Below are positions 5,701-59,752 of a stretch of DNA of 64,000 bases, one piece after another; within the stretch, counting starts at the first letter, position 1, and each line of letters begins with the position of its first letter. Position numbers and translations under genes: made by a program. Under the pieces are notes generated by a model. That model made no database searches. It was not told the origin of the DNA and saw nothing but the letters and a program-made list of their open reading frames with translations. Origin of the DNA: Owenia fusiformis (taxonomy: Eukaryota; Annelida; Polychaeta; Sabellida; Oweniidae). The DNA is taken from NCBI GenBank assembly GCA_903813345.2, contig CAIIXF020000008.1, positions 29,576,005-29,640,004 of the forward strand. The letters run 5' to 3'.

Positions 5701-8700
5701 TATTCAGAAATGTAGGTCAAATCAGTGGCCTGGAAAGCAGAAGTCTATGCAGGGTTTGTTGATTGTTGATAGTGATCTTTTTTACATTCCAGGTGAGAGT
5801 TAACTTAACCTCTTGGCTACCCAGAGTGACGAGATTTATCGTCACCTCATAAATGACTTTGAAACCCAGAGTGACGAGATAATCCGTCACAAAATTTTTC
5901 ACTAAAATTGCTCTTATTTGAACAATTTTTATACAATTTACACAAAACTTGTTTTAAAATGTCTAGAAATGATCTCTGCCGTCTAATTTTACTAAGTTGA
6001 ACATCGTCTGTTGAATATGTATGTAGTAAAATGTCAAAAGCTGGCAAAAATGAAAAATTATCTGGTTTCAACCTATTTTAGAACCTGGGATTCAAGAGGT
6101 TAAATCAGAATAGTTTCAAACAGAAATAAATACTTTTAAAATGCCATCAATTTTCATGAGTGTTTTTTCCATTTACAAAAAACATAATATTTAATTAAGT
6201 GTCATTATTTTTTGTCCCTATATCTTGACACCAGCATCTTGTATAAACTACCCCTATTGGTCTGATCAATTATCAAGTGCAATTTTGAAAGTACATACTT
6301 GTACAAACATCTAGCATTGCCTCAAATAAACCTAGAATAGGGGAAAATGTGTGCGATAACAATCAATAATCAAGATTGATTTGCAAGTGAAACGCTTATT
6401 AAAACGTAATGCAGAAAGTCTGTATGAAAGAGTGCTACAGAATAAATTCTGCAGTCACAGGATTAAATACAGGCTGTCAAATCTACAGGCACCCTTTAGC
6501 CTTCTTATCAGTGTTATGTTAAGGAGGAGCTGTACATTTACATATACAGTGACAATTTAATAATTTGCATTAAAGAGAAAGAGTTCAGAATAAATACTGC
6601 AGTCTAGCTCAAACATTTGTGAACAGTTAACCCAGGCCAGGCAGATCATACTATATCAGTTTTATGTTATGGAAGAGATGTACACTACATATACATCTAG
6701 TGACGTCTTTGTATAAAAGAGATAGGGTGTTGTCTAATCAACAACAAAAAACAAACAAAAAGGATAATTTTGTTGTCTAATCAACAACACATTGATTGCA
6801 CCAATATGACCTCTGTCACAACAATATTCAGATCATACATGTATTCTAAAGAGCTATACAATTAATCACACAATGACACAGCATTATAATATCTGAAGAG
6901 GAGTTGCCAAGTCACTATAATAAACAGCGAGAAACACAATATACATGTAAAACATAGGAAAAGGATAATTTTGTTGTCTAATCAACATCACATCAATTGC
7001 ACCAAGATGACCTCTGTCACTACAATGCCAACCAGCACCAGCATGATGACCTTGGCAATAATACTGATGACAATGATGTCCGACATGATCTGTGTGACTG
7101 AGGGATTGAATGTCCTCTTATTACCAGCCCCGGCCCCCAGCCATCTCTCGTACTTCCTTGAGGTCGGCAATGAACTAATCGATAGAGGTCACAAGGTATG
7201 TCTCTAATTTGTCACAAGATTTTCCAATTCCAATGTTTACACTCTTGAGACTGATTAGTAAGTGATACAGCTTAACCTCTATGATGATAAAGTATTATCA
7301 TAGGCAGTCAATAGTTTCTGAAAGGCTAAGAAGATCAAAACAGGTTGCATAACAATTAAGGTGTCGTGGTTCTTAACAGGAAATGACAAAACAGGAAGTG
7401 ACAAAACAATACTGGATTTCAAACATTTTTGTAGCCTTAGATAACAGAGTTCTGAATTGACCTCCAGTCAGTTTAACTAGTTGCACATATTATTTACATG
7501 ACCAGGATCACAATGTACAGGTCAGAATGACCCGAAACATGAAGAAATAACTTTTTCAGCCCTCTGAAAATGTGACTGAAAAATAGCTTAAAGTAGGAGC
7601 TTAAGAAAGGTTACTGAACAGAATCTTTTGAATTTTTCAAAAAATGTGCCCAATAAATTGCTCTAAATTATACAATCTTTGAAATTTAAAAAAAATGTCT
7701 GAAACAAAAATGGCGGCCATAGAAAGGAAATAGATCACTTTTCAATTCAGTTTTTCATTTTTTTCTTTTACTACGAATCATATCAAATTTTCTGTTAGGC
7801 TGTTGACAACTGTGTAAAGACAATCTGATCTCCACGCAGCATAACTGAATTTACTTGAGACTTGTTTATCCAAAAATTACCAAAACGAATAACTAGCTAA
7901 AACAGTATAAAGATATTTGATATTATATATCTAAACTATTAGTATTTCTTTTAGGTTGGTGTTATCATACCTGTACGTTTTAAAGAGAAGGTACCAGCCC
8001 AGTTCAACCTAAATGGTTCAAATGTCATATTTGACACCTTAGATGACAAAGGAAATGAGGAAAAGATGCAGGCTCAGGTCAGAAAGATGATGGAACAAGA
8101 AAATGTGGATATGATGACCTTTATGATGAACCAAGCCAAAGTTGCATCAGAAATAACAGAGAGAATACTTGGAAACCAGGATATATATAAGGCTGTAGAA
8201 AACAATAAGTATGATATAGCGATAGTCGATGGAATGCCATTCACCAAAGGATTATATGTGATTCCATATCGACATGGAATACCATTTACGACTTTGACAA
8301 CAGGGTTTTTTCCACCTGACATTGGGGTACCTTATCTCCCATCATTTATGCCTTCAATGCTTTCAACAAACACTCCTGAAATGACATTCTTCCAAAGGGT
8401 GCAAGAGGTTGCCTTTGCCATTGGAGTGTCAACAATGAAATGGCCGAAAACAGATGAAACGTTTGTAAGGAATTTTGCTCCTGGTAAAGACATTATCGAC
8501 CTAAACAAACTGTGTAAGAAAGCAGAGATGTGGTTCGTTAATTCTGATGTCCTCCTTGACTACATCCATCCAACTACCCCAAACATGATCGAATGTGGTG
8601 GTCTTACGACAAAACCATCAAAACCATTACCGACTGATCTCAATGATTTTGTATCAAATTCCAAAAATGGTATAATTGTTGTTTCATTTGGTTCAATGGT

Positions 8701-11700
8701 TTCAGATTTTCCTCATAAAATCATAGTCAACCTTGTTGAAGCGTTCAAAAAAGTGGATCTTGATATTATATGGAGGTATTCAGGCAAGATTAAAGAAATT
8801 CCAAAAAATGTTAAAACAGTAGCATGGTTACCTCAAAATGATCTTCTAGGACACGCGAAAACCAGACTTTTTATAACACACTGCGGGAACAATGGTCAAA
8901 CAGAGGCATTGTACCATGGCGTCCCAATGATAGGTCTGCCTATATTTGGGGACCAACCATATAATGCCAAGAGAATGGCTTACAAAGGTTATGGGATTGC
9001 CATGGATATCAAAACATTTAAAGTAAATGAACTGGTCGAAAATATCAATATTATACTTAAAGATGAAAAATTTATCAATCAGATTAAAAAAGCATCAAAG
9101 ATTTTTCGATCTAGACCACGAAACCCGAGGCAAAGAGTAGTTGATACCCTTGAACATGTAGAAGAATTTGGAGGGGACTACCTTCGACCACATTCGTTGG
9201 ATATGCCACTGTATAAACTTTACCTCATTGATGTCATAGTAACCGTCTTTGTTGCATTAGTAGTCCTATTCTACATTTTCTTTAAAATATTGTTTTACGT
9301 TCTTGGATTTATCAATAAGTCAAAGAAGTTAAAATCGCAAAAAATAGAATGAGAGGGAATTCTAGATGTGTATTACATAGGGTGATAGTCATCACATGAC
9401 ACAACGAGTGAAACAAGTGTAAATATAAAAATTTATTGTTTTTCTGACATTACGGGGAAATTATTTCAGTTACTTGCGCTACATTAAAAATAAACAGTCA
9501 TTTGATCACTATCCCCCCGAGTCTGAACTTGTTTAAAGGCCCACTATACTTAATTTAGAAGAAAAAATAAATAAAATAATCATTGAAACATGTTACTCGA
9601 TCACATACTTACTCAAATATGACACAAAGTTTGATTTTCTTTAATATTGAACCAAAAACAAAATAGTTCACACAGAAAAAAGCATTTGAAGTTCAGAGAT
9701 CATTAGTGGTGCATGCTCATGCTAAACAAAGTGCATGTCTTAAATTACTCTTGATTTAAAAGATGGCGACACTTCTGTAAAAAATGAATGTATCATGTAA
9801 TAAAATCAACTGCGCCATCTTTCAATGACATTGATTAAAACTTGATGTACAGTATAAAGCTTGACAGATCGAAAATATTTTTTGATAATTTATTGTAAGC
9901 TTTTATGTGGTCCATTTGAGCTGCTGTTGGTGCCAAATGAAAGAAAAGGTTCTTATCAATACATTGAACATACTACATTTATGATATTCAAATATAAATC
10001 TTTAATTTGCCAAAAAACGTTGAAAATACGCAAAGTGGGTCTTTAATGCATCTGTATTCAACGACCGTTATTGTAATTCATGACATGTTCTGTCATTCAT
10101 GCCTAATTGGAAGAGATACGAAGAATAATATGTTCCGAACAAAAATGGCATCTATGGTTCCATACATTACACAAGAGGTGCAGGCACAAATCTTTTATAA
10201 AAATCAGGAATTGAAAGTCATTTAGAACTAACATCTAGACGAAGGTAATCTAATCTTGAACCACTCTAGTTTAGGGATCTTTGAGTGAGGTAGCTGCTGC
10301 ATTTTTATTAAATGCCTGACCCTAGATGGTATGATATACTATAAATAACATAAAAATGTTTATTCCATAGTTAGCATGATATTCAAAGGATAACATGTGA
10401 AAATAAAAACGGTATTTTTGAAATCAGTGGTAAAATATGATATTTTTGACAAATTTTCACTTAACCATAACATACGGTTTTTTAGCCATGACATACGACG
10501 TCGTATGCGATGGTTTATGGATTTTTGCTACTTCAGACTCAAAACGAGGCTAAGTGTCAATATCGCCGGATCGTTTGGAAATTCGAATTAAATAACTTAA
10601 TTTCCGACGATTCTGATGATGACTTTAACTATGGAATAAAAAGAACATCCTATGATTTACTCGTGATATGATTTTAATCCACTCATGGATATTGATATCT
10701 GCACTCTCTCGCTACGCTCGCTCGTGCAGATATCATATCCATTCGTGGATAAAAATCATATCACTCATAAATCATAGGATATCCTCTATATATGCATATG
10801 TATATGCAAATCCTTAACCATCATTAGTCATCTGACCTGTGTTTGCCAGAATAGGTTGTGAAATTGGTCCACTGGCAACTAGATAATAAAACATATGTAG
10901 TGAACACTATCATCCATGTAAATATTTTTTATTTGAGGTATGAGGTTAGAGATGTTTTAATGTTACAGTTTGAAAAGTTTACACCATACAGCAGTATAAG
11001 CTATTTTTCTTGCATTTCCACTATAATTGTGTGAAAAAATATATGTATATATGTACATGTGCAGAGGCTTGTTTTATTTTTTAATTTGATATTCTTTGCT
11101 ATTTTCCATTTCAATTACTGTAGATTGGGTTAATTTGGAGAATTAGCATTTTTGCATGGCGGCTATTTAATTTGGCAGACACTGGGGCTTGGACAATCCT
11201 TTTCAGATTTTGTAAAATCAGACTGGAAGTGATTTAAAATACACTGACCAAAGTTCCCTGGAAAAAGCCCGGGGATCCTTTTTAATTTTGGTGAAGATGT
11301 AAATTGGCGGTTTTTTCTATTTCACCAAATTCACCAAATTAAACCAAGCACCAAACTAACCAATCTACAGTAATAGAAAACACAATGAACTCCTCCATGC
11401 AGTTGGCTGATATATAAATGTGCACATTTAAAAAATATATATTTTAAAATAATTCATTACAAATATTACTTTTCATGACTCGGAAAACTAGGCTATTTAG
11501 AACTACAGTGTATATGTTTTGAAAAATATGAGTTTTGACCAAAAAATTCGAATCATCAAATGCAACACTGTAAAACATATTATTTTCTCTCTAGTTTTAA
11601 GAAAAATTCTTAACCAAAGTGATTGAAACTTTATATGGGGCCTTTAAGGTTAGGAAATCATCTTACCCTGATTTGATGCATCAAAGAAGCTGGTTTCTCC

Positions 11701-38600: not shown

Positions 38601-41600
38601 TGTCCCTGAGAACATTTTCCAACAGGTCAATTATGTGGGTGGAATTGCCTAGAAATAATCCGAACACTACTCGAGAATCTATTAACGTAATTAGAAAGTT
38701 AAAAGTCTTGCCAAGAATATTCCTTAGACAAATCTTTTAAAACCCACATCACAATTTTTGCTTCAAACATGAAAACGTACAGCTAAATTATTTTCAGTGT
38801 ATGTGAATGATCTAGTGTCCGACATTAACAGTCTACAATGTGGAATACAAATGGAGGACGAGAACATTGGCATCCTTCTTTATGCTGATGACATAGCGCT
38901 TATTGCAAGCTCAGCTGATAACTTACAACAGATGTTAAACACTCTACATGAATGGTGCCGCAAATGGAGACTTCTAATTAACCCTCGAAAATCTAAAATA
39001 GTGCATTATCGCCCAAAATCACATCCTAGGTCAGACTTTGCTTTTAAATGTGGGGACTTTGATCTGGATTATACAGACACTTATAAATATCTGGGGATCT
39101 GGCTCCAAGAGCATGTGGACTCAACACACTCTGCCAGAGAAATTGCAAAATCGGCAAATAGAGCCCTGAGTGTAATTATCAGCAAATACAAGCAAACTGG
39201 GGGTATGGAGTTCGCAGTTTACAACAAGCTATATGACTCTTTAGTCCAGCCTATACTAAACTATGGTTCATCTTTATTTGGCCTCAACCAACATCAATGC
39301 CTGAACAATGTTCAAAATAAAGCTGGCAAGTTCTTTCTAGGTGTAAACAAACGCACTAGTAATGAGGCTGTTAGAGGAGATCTCGGATGGGACACTCCAC
39401 ATTTAAAACAAAAGGTGGAATGTGCTAGATTGTTCATTAAACTGAAGTCCATGAATCAGAATAGGCTGAATTTTAAAATACATGAATGGTCCATTAAACG
39501 AAAAAACAGTTGGGACTTTAAAGTTAATTCAATGTTAAATACATGTAATATAAATTTCACTGGTCATACCAAGGACATTTTAAAACAGTTTACTAACTCT
39601 CTTCGAAATTCTGATAAATTTATCCATAACATATGGGATGATAGAAATAATGAAATTAATGGCAATAAATTGAGGCAATATAGACTGTACAAATATGGTG
39701 TTTGCAAGGAAGGGTATTTGGCCCTACCAAAGCATCACCGTAGGTCACTCGCTAGATTCAGAACTGGTACTTTACCCTTAGCAATTGAAACAGGGCGCTA
39801 CACAGGTATACCATTACACGAAAGGAAATGCTTATTATGTGACATGAATTGTATTGAAGATGAAAAGCATTTCTTATTAGAATGTAGCCATTATGATGAT
39901 CTAAGATGTGATTTTTATGAAAATGTTAAACAGAAATTGCCTTATTTAGATGTAACATCAGCCAATTCTACACTTCTTTTTGTCTCCATTATGAATTGTA
40001 CTTCACTCCAAAGACCATTAGGAGCTTTAGTTTATAATATGTGCAATAAGAGATCTCTTAATATTGATAGGCTATAATCACTAAATGAGTATGCATGTCA
40101 CCTAAGTTTCCTTTATAAAATATTTATTTAAAATGTATCTAGTCAGAAACTCCTTGGTTTTATGATGCCTCTTTTTAGTGCTTCGAGCTATCAACCTTGG
40201 GGAAGATGGTCTCAATTCACTACTGCAGAGGTGTATATTATCTATGGGGTTCTTTTTTATTTATTCACTGCTCATGCAAATCACATTTAGTGCAATATAT
40301 GTATTTATTACTCAATATGCATCTCACATTTAGTGCAATATATGCATTTATTGTAATATTTGTCTTCAAACATATGCATTATGTATTTCACATTTAGTGC
40401 AATATTCATATTAATTGTAATATTTGACCATATGCAATATACTACTTACATTTAGTGCAATATATGTATTTATCATGCAATATGCATCTCACATTTAGTG
40501 CAATACATGTATTTATTGTAATATTTGTCTTCAACCGATGCATTGTGTATTTCACATTTAGTGCAATGTTTATATTTATTGTAATATTTGACCATAGTGC
40601 AACATGCTACTTACATTAAGTGCAATATATGAATTTATTGTTATAACAGTCTTCGACCATATGCATGATACAATTCACATTTAGTGCGATATTTGTATTT
40701 ATTGTAATTTTTGACCATATGCAACATGCTACTCTCATTTAGTGCAATATATGTATTTAATATAATGATTGACAATATCATTCCATGAACTACTTATTTA
40801 TTTATGCCAAACTGATTAATCAGACTGAATTTATATCATTGGTTATTAATCATGTATAAATTTTTACCAGGGACATTTTTTGTGTCTGTCTTTATGAGTG
40901 TTGACCCAAGCTGCCCATTGGGGGTAGTAATGGGTGACACTCAGATATAATGTATACTGTGTCTCATAAGTCGGCACCGGCTGGTGATGTTACAAAATGT
41001 TGTTTTTATTATGTATTTTATATGTATATTGTAATGTCAGTGACACAAAAATAAACTATTTTAAACTAAACTAAACTAAAAATGTACAACCGTATATTTT
41101 GTCACTGTACGTTGTCGATGATTAGGCGTATTAAGATGTTTTAAGCGTTTTCTTATTTTTATACTGAACATAATGTAATGTTAGGTGCATTTTCTCATAA
41201 TGATCCAAATGTAATGTTTGATTCCTCAGTTGTTCAACGTCAACCTAGTAAAAAACTACAATCAATATGACAAAATAGCTTTCCAATGGTGTGATTATTT
41301 CGTTAGTCACTTTTGATAACCGGGAGACATTAAGCTGGCATATAAAATCGAAACGCCAACCTGTACGCATAAAATTGCCCTATAATAATGCATGTATTTT
41401 TCTCACACAAATAATCGTTCGGTCACAGTGTTTACTTTTAGTCCGTTACTTAGACCATATGTCATTGATACATGTAGTTATATAGCTGGTTTTCTATGAT
41501 ACATATATATTTTAAACATGCTCGTTTCGTAAGATCTTTGGAACTATAGTATTTAATAATTTAATAATTATGACATACATATTTTCTTCAGAAATCATTA

Positions 41601-55000: not shown

Positions 55001-56181
55001 GAAGTGGACTGATGTGCTTTACCTATATTCTCATTAACAATATGACCAAGTGTGATGACCCTGAAAATCATGCTATTCTCCATCTACACATTTTTCAAGA
55101 GTGAGGACATTAAGCAGGCCCGTAGCCAGAATTTTCAAAGGGGGGGTACACTATTCCAAACAATTCTAGGGCCAAAAAAATGGCCAGAATGGTGAAAAAC
55201 TGCATGATTTTGGTAGAAATTTTGGCCAGGGGGGGGGGTTCATCCGAACCCTCCAAGCCCCCCTGGCTATGGGGTTGTTAAGATTCAAGAACTTTAGAGA
55301 CATCTACACTCAATTTTTATTCCCTTACCTATGCTCACAATCAATGTGAAAAATACTGCTAACAGTGTCAGAAGCAAATGTAATCTCCTTTGTCTCTCTC
55401 TGGGCTTGAATACACACATCACAGATGACTTTAGGTGAGAAAGGCTGAATAGAAAACTACAGTAGTTTTTTCCTTGTCTTTGGTCCTCCGTGGGTTTTAT
55501 ATCCTTGACGAATATTAATGTATAGATACAGGCTAGAACTTGGGATACAAGCAAGAAGGAGAACACAAATGTAAAGCTGGTGTTTTCTAGCATTATTCCA
55601 CTCACTAATACACCAAGAGTGGAACCCATGAATGTCATAGATTCTAAGATGCCGATGCGTATTGTCCTTGTTCTTGGGTCGGCGATGAAACCAACATAGC
55701 TGAAAACCGACATTATCGCAGTAACAAATCCTCCCATAATTCCATTTATCGTACTGCTGACTAAAACAAGAGGTAACGGTACAGTTTCCATATGCACAGA
55801 TAGTATGATGTAATTCAGTGACGATAGACATGCGCCAATGATAGGCAGTAATATTGGCAGTTTGCGACTGAATCTATCTGCCCATGAGCCTATAAATGAT
55901 GCAGAAATCAACGAAGGAATCGTAAGACATAGCGTCCCATAAAAAATCCAATGCGAAGCTTCAGTCTGTGTGTATTTCTCTTGTTCCTTGTATTCAGGAT
56001 TTGTTAGGTTTGTACATATGCCGATATCTTTGTATTTATCAAAGCATGTTTTCCGATAAAGAAATTGCTGGAAAACTGAAAATTGGGTGAATTGCGCCAG
56101 CATATATAGGAAAAGAACTGGTTCGACAGTTATGGAGCGAAAACAAGACGCTATCCTAGTCGTGCATTTTTGGCAGCCCAT
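49039..56181 (-). CDS. SLC46-type transporter (PCFT family), 501 aa, with an alternative end
   Basis: SLC46 proteins are 12-helix major-facilitator carriers; A1 carries folate with protons and A3 exports lysosomal metabolites. Main exons: 56181-55329, 54715-54470, 53097-53014, 52692-52536, 52004-51839. All phases close to 1506 nt. Exon 1 has a Cys-rich N terminus, a glycosylatable extracellular loop (ICTNLTNPEY) and motif A (GSWADRFSRK) between helices 2 and 3. Later exons give the C-terminal six helices (SFTVAGMRALMSKLVEPNEQG, GIGESLCTLLGSTIFN) and a Ser/Asp-rich tail. A donor inside the last exon (GCAG/GTGGGA) joins in phase to 49154-49039, which would give a different tail ending LQFEKY. 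The substrate is unknown. Head to head with the sulfatase-like gene. Confidence 0.9.
49241..51290. repeat. ~15-bp minisatellite AATGAGTTGAACAGG, interrupted
   Basis: Units such as GAATGAGTTGAACAG run from 49241 to 49436 and from 50604 to 51290. A satellite-bearing mobile element separates the two parts. Units are diverged and include a G-homopolymer at 50965-50976. On the minus strand the array lies between the two alternative last exons of the SLC46-type gene. Confidence 0.8.
49439..50603 (+). mobile_element. Hairpin-family element with internal satellite
   Basis: The left end is ATGTCACCACCT (49443). The right module has TTGTTACAGACGCCGGACGCC, ACCAACCACCAACCGCC and AACGGAGACC. It ends in the perfect hairpin ATGTCACCAC-TTTTG-GTGGTGACAT (50578-50602). 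Between them, about seven tandem units of 125-175 bp, each with AGTCAATTTGAAGCAAGTTG and TTTTTGACCTTGAGAAGG, replace the usual short spacer. Terminal modules, central tandem repeats and a 3' hairpin are the plan of Helitron-associated (HINE/pearl-type) elements. It is inserted in a 15-bp minisatellite. Confidence 0.75.
53835..54350. mobile_element. pogo-like MITE in an SLC46 intron
   Basis: CAGTAAAGACTCTCTAAGTG at the left and CAGTGAAACCAGTAAAGTC (right end, inverted) have TA on each side (53833-53834, 54351-54352). The internal word CAGTTGGTATTGG also occurs in the fragment near 36375, so both belong to one family. Confidence 0.65.
55115..55275. mobile_element. Short MITE with GGCCCGTAGCCAG end
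   Basis: GCCCGTAGCCAG followed by a G run at the left, and a C run with CTGGCTATGGGG at the right, are inverted partners about 160 bp apart. A lone related end, GGCGTAGCCAGGGGGG, occurs near 27628. Confidence 0.55.
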
Positions 56182-56609
56182 TTTGTAAATTGTATGTGTA
56201 CCAATGATGTATCAAACTGTAAAAAATAAAACTGAGCATTAGAAAGCTACACTCATGTTGGCTCTAACAGTAAGTCTGCACAGGAGGCTAGGCTAGATAA
56301 GGGTTCTTCAACAATACTGTACATTTGTATTTCTGACAGTGACATGACATTCCAATCCAAACACAGGGTTCCAAACTCAATTTTCGTGAAAAAGATTCCT
56401 CAGAATGTAAATTTAACATATCTAACACTATCAAGAAAATTATCATATACATTTATCAGATTCAAATAGTGGTACAAGTCTGTCTATGTAAGAAAATATC
56501 AACTTTTCTATCCTGATTTCAATGTTCTTACTTTTTCTTCTTTTTTCTTTTTTCATTATCGCCCACTAGTCATGTGACTGTCACGTGACCCATTGCTATA
56601 ATAAACAAC
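56182..56609. promoter_or_regulatory. Bidirectional promoter with paired CLEAR-type E-boxes
   Basis: This 428-bp gap separates the divergent SLC46-type and sulfatase-like start codons. It carries GTCATGTGAC (56569-56578) and GTCACGTGAC (56580-56589) one base apart, 20 bp before the sulfatase-like ATG. GTCACGTGAC is the palindromic CLEAR/TFEB-MITF site known from lysosomal gene promoters of animals. No TATA box is obvious near the SLC46 side. Its function here is inferred. Confidence 0.6.
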
Positions 56610-59600
56610 ATGGCTGCCAATATTTTTGTAATAACTATTTTCTTTGGTATTTTCTTCATTTACTCAGTTCATGGAATAGAAGGAGCAGAAAATAAACCCC
56701 CAAATATACTTCTTATAATCGCCGACAATCTAGGGCATGATGACATTGGCAGTTTTGGGAATGCAGATGCCAAAACACCAAATTTGGATCAGCTTTCAAA
56801 TGAGGGTATGAAATTCACCAGAATGTACAGTCAGCCAAGTTCAACAAGTAGCAGGGCTGCAATACTAACAGGTTTGTCCTTCATCACCATGTTATTTAGT
56901 GTTTTTAAGTGTCGCAAGGATCCTGCCATGATCGTGGTATTGTTATCGTGAAAGCCTGGTATAACCTAGTTCAACAAGTTAAACCTAGTCTGGGCCTTAT
57001 TTCTTATCTGACATATCTTGTGGCCCGCCCTAGGTTTAACTTCCGTGCCTATTCAGCCCTTGATGCAAAAAAATTTAATGGTGGCCTATGGTTCCGCATG
57101 AAATTCGATGCGCGTTTAATTAATAACTGATGGTGGGAATTTGCAACAAACGAAAGCATAGCACGGAAGTTAAACCCAACCACGGCAACACGAACATTCA
57201 GATTAAAAAATGAAAGCCGTGGTATTGGGTTTAACTTGTTGAACTAGGTATAACCGTGACAATGCTATATTATATTGCAAGGCCTGTCATGGATAATGTT
57301 CAAGCCTGATATTACCGTGACAATTGAATATTCACGTTCCGAATGAGATTAGAATTATAGTTCGTGAAAATGAATTATGAGTTAAAGTAGTAGACTAGTC
57401 TAGATTTACATATTTAAGGTAGATAAACGATTAAATTTTTCATTACAGTATTCTCATGCTACTAAATGTCACTTATATAACCATTGTCACGGTCATATTG
57501 TGCTTTAACATTACCACAGTCATGACAGGCCTTGCAACCATTGTCATGGTCATGTCAGGTTTTAACATTTCCACGGTCATGACAGGCCTTGCAACCATTG
57601 TCACGGCCATATCAGGCTTTAACACTACCGCGGTCATGTCAGGCCTTATAATATAGTATAGCATTGTCACGGTCATATCAGGCTTTAAGATTACCATGGT
57701 CATGACAGGCCTTGCAACTATTGTCACAGTCATATCAGGCTTTAACATTACCACGGTCATGACAGGCCTTGCAACCATTGTCACAGTCATATCAGACTTT
57801 AACATTACCACGGTCATGACAGGCCTTGCAATATAGTATAGCATTGTCACGGTCATATCAGGCTTTAACATTACCACGGTCATGACAGGCCTTGCAACCA
57901 CTGTCACAGTCATATCAGGCGTTAACATTACCACGGTCATTACAGGCCTTGCAACCATTGTCACGGTTATATCAGGCTTCAACACTACCGCGGTCATGTC
58001 AGGCCTTGCAATATAGTTTAGCATTGTCACAGTCATATCAGACTTTAACATTACCACGGTCATGACAGGCCATGCAATATAATATAGCATTGTCACGGTT
58101 ATACCAGGCTATCACAATAACACTACCACGGACACGGCAGGATCCTTGCGAAACTTAAAAACACTTAATAACATGGTGACGGTTGTGCCAGGCATAAGTC
58201 TTGTAACAGATAGCAAGAAAGGGTCTCAGATATTATGCCAATTACATGAACATGTATGTAATTTATTCACTGTCTTTATATTCCAGGCATATTACCCGCA
58301 AGGATGATGCTGTCACAAGGATGGTCTGGATTTTCTGACTTCATAAGTCCAGCACAAAATTCTGGAATACACCCCAGTGAGCATACAATTGCATCTTTAC
58401 TACATACCAAACAGTATCATAATGCCTTTATTGGGAAATGGCATCTAGGTTACGGGCCCCATGGAGGTTTCCTTCCTTTAGAAAATTCCTATCAAAGTTT
58501 TTATGGAATCCCTCTGACACATACGGATGCCTGTAGTGCTAATCCACAATCATATACAAATGATGGATATTTATTTGTGCTGTGGTTGGCTAATTGGGGA
58601 ATATCTTGGACTGTTTTAATTGTTTTCTTGACAACATTCCGATTCTTTGGATTAGTGTCTGGTAAAAAAATGGTGATTTTTATTGCTGTCATGGTGACTG
58701 TTCTTGGAGTCGTAAGACTTTGGTTCATGATAACAATTGCAAATCCAATGTCTTGTATACTCATGCGAAATGATCAGATCATTGAACAGCCATACAAAGA
58801 AGAAAATATGACTTTGCGCTTTACCCAAGAGGCTATCGAAGTGGTGAGAAAACATTCTACTTTGAAAGACCATCCGTTGTTCCTTACGGTTTCATACATA
58901 GCACCCACAATACCTTGTTTTACCTCAAAATTCTTCAAAGGGAAAACAAAAAGTTGTTACTCGGACTCTGTATCTGAATTGGACTGGAATATTGGACAAA
59001 TTCTAGACAGTATGAAAAAATATAAACTTGATGAGAATCTTTTGGTTGTATTCACAAGTGCAAATGGGCACATAACGCATCATGGATATCCATATAAACC
59101 AGTCAGTAAAAAGATAATGGGCTTCAAACAAAAGACATCAAAATTCAGAGGCGGAATGGGAACCGAATTAGAAGGTGGATTACGTGTACCTACAATTATA
59201 AAGTGGACTGGTAAAATCCCGGAAAATACTCAAATTGAAATCCAAACTACAACGATGGATATTTTTCCAACTATTGTGAAAATTGTCAACCCAAACAGAT
59301 TAAAAGCAATCAAAAGATCTAGAAAAATAGATGGGAAAAGTCTTCTCCCTTTATTTGAAGATCCTTCTATATCCGAACACCATAATCACATATTTCATTA
59401 TTGCGATTCTCAAGTTGTTGGAACAATTACATACGAACATTTGAAAATCTCAATGTTTACTGGGATCGATGGTTTAACTTGCACAGGTGAGCACAACAAT
59501 CCACCATTGATATATAATATCACGGCAGACCCCAGAGAGGAACATCCTCTCCCCCCAGAAACCTATGATGAGCTAGCATTTATAATAACGAGGGACATTT

Positions 59601-59752
59601 TTAACCATCAGGCTAGCATTGATAAAGATAGGTTCTCATTCTTAGATACCATTCCATGGCCTTGGTACTTTCCCTGTGCCAATTTTCCTTATTGCTCAAA
59701 AACTATTGATGGAGACGAAGAATTTAGTGATCTCAATTTGGAGCAATTGTGA
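56610..59752 (+). CDS. Steryl-sulfatase-like protein, probable pseudoenzyme, 575 aa
   Basis: Exons 56610-56871 and 58287-59752 (phase 1) match the length of steryl sulfatase/arylsulfatase D-F (about 583). A signal peptide ends near residue 22. The N-terminal alpha/beta fold block is NILLIIADNLGHDDIGSFGN. GKWHLG (K138, H140) is kept, and a membrane hairpin lies at about 182-206 and 215-241, as in STS. Key residues are lost. The formylglycine motif C-x-P-S-R reads S78-T-S-S-R. The second metal Asp after D39 is N40. The D-N/Q metal pair in FTSDNG is A346-N347. The HVHT histidine region is IAPTIP, and the active-site Lys in GGK is Met. The frame is intact and well conserved elsewhere, so a non-catalytic role is more likely than decay. 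An AATAAA lies at 60166. Confidence 0.88.
56965..57249. mobile_element. Harbinger-like MITE, 285 bp
   Basis: Inverted ends ACCTAGTTCAACAAGTTAAA are flanked by ATA on both sides (56962-56964, 57250-57252), a 3-bp duplication as in PIF/Harbinger. A second inverted pair, GGTTTAACTTCCGTGCC and its complement, lies inside. It inserted into the first unit of the sulfatase intron minisatellite. Confidence 0.7.
57473..58110. repeat. 57-bp minisatellite in the sulfatase intron
   Basis: Units of about 57 bp (TTGTCACGGTCATATCAGGC, then TTTAACATTACCACGGTCAT and GACAGGCCTTGCAACCA) repeat about eleven times. The period is a multiple of three, which keeps both strands open and creates long but meaningless frames, including a 207-codon one on the minus strand. 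Confidence 0.9.

Follow-up and report, generated by a model that had tools for sequence, protein, structure and literature searches.

A steryl-sulfatase-like gene of Owenia fusiformis with a replaced active site is probably a maintained pseudosulfatase

The gene described here raises the question of what becomes of a sulfatase-like protein, and of the constraint on its gene, once half of the named active-site residues, among them the cysteine that is converted to formylglycine, have been replaced. It lies in a 64,000-nt stretch of contig CAIIXF020000008.1 of the annelid Owenia fusiformis (hereafter the window, whose positions are used for this gene and its neighbours).

The gene and its replaced active site

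Two exons joined across a GT–AG intron (Table 1) give 576 codons including the stop, that is, 575 residues in one open frame, and neither these 575 codons nor the intron borders show what would mark a pseudogene, such as a stop, a frameshift or a damaged splice site. The encoded protein matches the Pfam models Sulfatase (E = 7.4e-40) and Sulfatase_C (E = 4.7e-14), and its best match in the PDB is steryl-sulfatase (STS; 8eg3, E = 4.6e-78; 1p49, E = 1.5e-77) over residues 12–464 and 489–554. At the level of sequence, these E-values exclude a chance likeness to sulfatases. The likeness to human STS (STS/ARSC; 1P49, 8EG3), whose family bears the SulfAtlas label S1_3 in an excerpt of PMC5066984, takes in the pairing of Sulfatase with Sulfatase_C, a putative hydrophobic hairpin, the GKWHLG signature and equivalents of the STS residues C242 and C446.

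Table 1 Coordinates of the features of the sulfatase-like gene, of the element in its intron and of the other cysteine-less sulfatase loci
Feature	Position	Strand	Remark
Exon 1	56610..56871	+	Start codon, signal-like segment, metal motif D39 N40 and degenerate S-T-S-S-R
Codon N40	56727..56729	+	For STS Asp36 (metal ligand)
Codons S78-T-S-S-R82	56841..56855	+	For C-x-P-S-R; S78 is the site of the formylglycine cysteine
Intron	56872..58286	+	GT–AG; mostly occupied by repeat element
Mobile-element-like insertion	56884..58179		57-nt minisatellite (57479–58077) flanked by 83-nt inverted repeats (90%)
Exon 2	58287..59752	+	Remaining sulfatase domain, hairpin, Sulfatase_C region and stop
Second sulfatase signature G137-K-W-H-L-G142	58433..58450	+	Kept (K138, H140)
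Putative hydrophobic hairpin, residues ~182–240	58568..58744	+	At the STS hairpin position; from hydropathy and alignment to STS
Codon T295	58907..58909	+	For STS His290
Codons A346-N347	59060..59065	+	A346 for STS Asp342 (metal ligand)
Codon M378	59156..59158	+	For STS Lys368
F1–F8, ARSB-like	L010–L017, continued L025–L030, L032, L033		Contigs C3, C4, C8 and C10
L020, IDS-like open frame	L020:130-1266 (C6:33.60 Mb)	+	379 residues

The PDB match, the Sulfatase_C region and the placement of the gene in the STS/ARSA clade all point to STS-type (S1_3) descent. That placement has a support of 96/99 in a tree of 23 sulfatases, in which the position of the gene within the clade is unsettled. The clade (96/99) is shared with arylsulfatase A (ARSA, S1_1), which the window protein resembles in the G-P-x-G-x-F-L-P run that follows GKWHLG. 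Compared by eye, its first intron comes after L-T-G, as in the ARSA-like locus S4 and unlike in loci S1–S3. ARSA, however, keeps its active-site residues, unlike the window protein, and it has no hairpin. Its row in the alignment has a gap at the hairpin region.

Hydropathy alone reveals a hydrophobic, signal-peptide-like segment at residues ~1–25 and, together with the alignment, two hydrophobic stretches at residues 182–240, where STS has its membrane hairpin. A structure prediction of exon 2 alone, made without an alignment, reached a pLDDT of 38.5, too poor to confirm the hairpin, the fold or the pocket.

As a reference for the active site we used the ten STS residues that are named in an excerpt of PMC7241464. 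In the alignment, five of the ten are replaced in the window protein (D36 by N40, C75 by S78, H290 by T295, D342 by A346 and K368 by M378), so that, unlike STS, it is without equivalents of the formylglycine cysteine, D36, H290, D342 and K368. Equivalents of D35, R79, K134 and H136 are kept as D39, R82, K138 and H140, and N347 stands for Q343, as it does in S1, S2, S3 and ARSA. At the four STS positions that we take to hold the metal (D35, D36, D342 and Q343), the window protein has D39, N40, A346 and N347 and thus departs from an active metal site, while the lysine and histidine of GKxxH are both present in GKWHLG (residues 137–142). The S78-T-S-S-R82 stretch also departs from C/SxPxR, the motif that contains the formylglycine precursor in excerpts of PMC8869759 and PMC7279497 and that marks active S1 sulfatases; here S80 replaces the proline. 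A six-frame scan of window positions 40–64 kb for CxPxR-like patterns, which is blind to a motif that spans two exons, returned the gene's own STSSR and seven others, none of them in a sulfatase-like context, and no alternative exon restoring CxPxR. With the cysteine and the proline gone and two metal ligands replaced, the protein is presumably inactive as a sulfatase, and judging from its residues it would not be expected to cleave sulfate esters.

The preliminary description of this gene had reported N40, the S78-T-S-S-R stretch (with S80 and R82) and A346, and the translation of the gene model has each of them in place, together with D39. The loss of the histidine of HVHT and the methionine in place of the active-site lysine, which it had also reported, correspond to T295 and M378 in the alignment to STS, and the alignment and gene model bear out an intact GKWHLG and 575-residue frame. 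Its proposal of a secretory or membrane protein fits the signal-like N terminus and the hairpin, as far as hydropathy goes; for the lysosomal part of that proposal, no evidence was found.

Two further features of the protein lie outside the named residues. The invariant glycine upstream of GKWHLG is Gln130. C298 and C311 have no cysteine opposite them in STS and are near the lost H290 position in the sequence.

Maintenance, decay and other readings

The replacements extend beyond the active site. In 57 columns, eight cysteine-bearing, presumed active sulfatases all share one residue; the window protein keeps 40 of these and has changed 17, and seven control sulfatases, each left out in turn, keep 56–57 of 57–65 invariant columns. 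The PDB chains have another letter in the cysteine column, which is for that reason not counted here. Losses spread in this way over invariant columns indicate that constraint was altered across the whole protein. Catalytic residues were not hit significantly harder than the other invariant ones: 4 of the 9 are kept, compared with 36 of the other 49 (P = 0.09), and a second residue set gave the same outcome (4 of 9 compared with 52 of 73; P = 0.11). Non-concentrated losses are what broad relaxation would also give, and they count against a maintained pseudoenzyme. The branch leading to the window gene is long, at 1.86 against a median of 0.64 in a tree of 10 sulfatases and at 1.36 against 0.42 in the tree of 23, where it drew no long-branch flag. 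The gene is single in the genome, and the next matches to it are pieces of other sulfatases, in exons that are 28–46% identical.

The long branch and the 17 changed columns would both be expected of a gene that is now decaying, having lost constraint lately and not yet gained a stop or a frameshift. The open frame was set against a simulation of neutral substitution with the base composition of the window (substitutions only, without indels; 2,000 frames), in which 300 replicates at each divergence served to count changed sites, over 58 codons drawn at random from the present gene. The window gene has changed at 18 of 58 compared codons. In the simulation, 0.10–0.20 substitutions per site gave means of 12–21 changed codons out of 58 and left 0–0.1% of the 2,000 frames free of stops; within the part of that range from 0.14 to 0.2, the means were 15 to 21 and not one of the 2,000 frames stayed open. 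At 0.04 substitutions per site, about 5 of the 58 codons had changed and 4% of the 2,000 frames were stop-free. Under this model, simple neutral decay is rejected, and the data are compatible with a gene that was long constrained and became neutral only recently. Recent decay consequently has difficulty with 18 of 58 changed sites in an open frame, at least for substitutions alone, and would have to assume that constraint was first altered for a long time and then lost less than about 0.04 substitutions per site ago, at which 4% of frames are still stop-free. We consider it unlikely.

More probably, the window gene belongs to the STS/ARSA clade as a pseudosulfatase that has been maintained. 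The preliminary description had arrived at a pseudosulfatase with a retained frame, and the open frame, the replaced residues, the CxPxR scan and the simulation support it. It had also named beforehand two findings that would speak against this reading, an alternative exon with CxPxR and neutral decay with stops in orthologues; the pattern scan of 40–64 kb returned no such exon, and the gene itself has no stops.

A maintained pseudosulfatase of this kind would enter the endoplasmic reticulum, and its hairpin would hold it in the membrane, as in STS. S78 would presumably escape modification by FGE, which recognises CxPxR according to an excerpt of PMC7279497; an FGE-family gene is present in the genome (E = 1.8e-79; contig C3 at 19.19 Mb), with four further partial matches on contig C1. 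The protein would then bind no catalytic calcium and cleave no sulfate esters. Tentatively, its sulfatase fold could serve as a non-catalytic surface that either binds a ligand or pairs with a protein of the secretory pathway, in the first place perhaps an active sulfatase.

The idea that the pocket was kept as a receptor for a steroid sulfate or sulfated lipid, without cleavage, draws on the hairpin at the place where STS has one and on the retention of K138, H140 and R82. Against it, only one of eight compared STS contact residues is identical, a comparison of little power that covers 8 of the 12 residues listed in an excerpt of PMC7241464 and in which even the cysteine-bearing S1, S2 and S3 score 1, 1 and 2 of 8. 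Moreover, the loss of metal ligands and of the Lys368 equivalent should make sulfate binding weak. The steroid-sulfate binder suggested in the preliminary description is accordingly not supported, even allowing for the low power of the test, and we regard such a receptor as improbable.

Least probable of all is a protein that is still an enzyme, whether it hydrolyses with the serine itself, as a member of the alkaline phosphatase superfamily, or is a sulfatase whose formylglycine is made from serine: serine does occupy the nucleophile position, D39, R82, K138, H140 and N347 are kept, and prokaryotic sulfatases can form formylglycine from serine (in an excerpt of PMC8869759), but the protein has lost two metal ligands as well as the counterparts of H290 and K368, the proline of C/SxPxR is S80, and the radical-SAM sulfatase maturase of the serine type (model TIGR03942) has no match in the genome, an absence that is not proven by a search that responds in 12 of 14 control genomes and rises above the cut-off in two.

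Cysteine-less sulfatases across the genome

The window gene is not the only sulfatase of this genome to be without the nucleophile cysteine. Read by eye, 10 of 34 readable sulfatase loci are without it and 24 have it, and the activity of these 24 is assumed from the cysteine. The census is incomplete, since four unreadable loci (L043–L046) were left out and some further matches were not included; in L011 and L022, where the pattern output had misplaced the nucleophile position, the reading by eye was used. The ten comprise the window gene, eight ARSB-like loci (F1–F8) and one IDS-like locus (L020). Like the window gene, the ARSB-like loci have lost both the cysteine and the second N-terminal aspartate, the latter in all eight, but they belong to a separate ARSB-like clade. 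Three of them lie within about 72 kb on contig C4, and F6 is at C8:30.25 Mb, 0.6 Mb from the window. In place of the signature they carry STAFR in five cases and otherwise PTAFR, ATGFR and SSHTR, and the asparagine of DNG is histidine, lysine or arginine in the six members in which that exon was found. The family is built of many short exons, with up to ten conserved coding segments per locus; the DNA examined covers F2, F5, F6, F7 and F8 in part, and all eight are represented by segments rather than spliced models. F1–F6 carry a cysteine-rich insert. In F6, three in-frame EGF-like repeats precede the sulfatase segment (Pfam EGF, E = 2.2e-16; L015:1413-1901, minus strand), and one EGF-like motif stands shortly upstream in F5 (L013:1-330, plus strand). 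To our knowledge, the combination of EGF-like repeats with ARSB has not been described for an animal ARSB.

Nine of the 28 pairs among F1–F8 have a finite dS, and in these ω is 0.09–0.20 (NG86), the other 19 being saturated; the four pairs with a dS under 1.3 give 0.14–0.20. Since every member is without the cysteine, the simplest reading is that this constraint acted after the cysteine was lost. The constraint on F1–F8 is stronger evidence for kept pseudosulfatases than the window gene offers. It does not bear directly on the window gene, and these eight loci nevertheless provide a precedent in the same genome for the retention of cysteine-less sulfatases. The best reading of F1–F8 and the window gene is that they are kept pseudosulfatases, which would bind a ligand or partner another protein in the secretory pathway without catalysis.

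The tenth locus, L020, is most similar among solved proteins to iduronate-2-sulfatase (E = 7.5e-28) and has KD for DD, GTRG for GDHG, and SSDVS at the site of CCPSR in L022. Its C-terminal part was not seen in the following bases that were read, and because the frame stops short of that part, L020 may be a pseudogene.

On a tree that took in eight of the ten cysteine-less loci (the window gene, F1, F3, F4, F6, F7, F8 and L020), the presence and absence of the cysteine needs three state changes, which are forced by the starred branches. Three losses are the simplest reading of these changes, because regain of the cysteine is unlikely. A single origin of all the losses, with the eight loci constrained together, was rejected (p-AU = 9.5e-54). 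This value calls for caution, since the grouping was defined once the sequences had been seen and long branches, that of L020 among them, are involved. In a wider scheme, sulfatases would have given up catalysis at least three separate times to become secretory, membrane or extracellular proteins of another use, with about three in ten readable loci forming a dedicated non-catalytic system that recognises sulfated ligands or controls active sulfatases; we regard it as speculative and, on balance, rather unlikely.

Among kinases and proteases, pseudoenzymes are well known. Within the sulfatase pathway, SUMF2 is non-catalytic, although its fold is different and it is a paralogue of the modifier rather than of a sulfatase. 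An excerpt of PMC13199485 describes this paralogue of FGE/SUMF1, which belongs to the same pathway, as a negative regulator. The word pseudosulfatase is absent from 5.39 million open-licence papers, and among the matches listed from the same literature no title or opening of an abstract concerned a naturally cysteine-less family of animal sulfatases; this is weak evidence of novelty because subscription journals are mostly outside that scope. The window gene is probably a pseudoenzyme of the STS/ARSA clade, and the separate, clearly constrained ARSB-like family adds interest to it. If such proteins are made, annotation pipelines would wrongly label them sulfatases, and they would offer a natural test of the sulfatase fold without its chemistry, for which the eight-member ARSB-like family is the easier subject because its constraint is already measurable.

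The intron element and neighbouring features

The inverted-repeat arm of the element in the intron of the window gene is highly repeated, with 1,062 candidates in the genome; all 40 of those scored, the window's own included, match at 94–100% over at least 81 bases. The arm also gave three weaker partial matches. A second element is possibly nested at 56964–57249, where perfect 22-nt inverted repeats stand 242 nt apart. Inside the minisatellite, whose 57-nt unit equals 19 codons, an open frame of 207 codons runs on the minus strand (57473–58096); it is most likely not a gene.

Shortly 5′ of the start codon of the sulfatase-like gene, a pyrimidine-rich tract (56528–56571) that ends in CACTAG resembles a 3′ splice site, so that this gene may have a 5′ UTR exon further upstream or be trans-spliced. 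The nearest open frame on the upstream side (55294–56211) belongs to an MFS-like transporter exon of the opposite strand, and its first ATG lies 428 bases from the sulfatase ATG in a head-to-head arrangement. Elsewhere in the window are a UDP-glucuronosyl/glucosyltransferase (7955–9352, plus strand; Pfam UDPGT, E = 1.4e-77) and a reverse transcriptase fragment, probably of a retroelement (38773–40077, plus strand; Pfam RVT_1, E = 2.2e-13).
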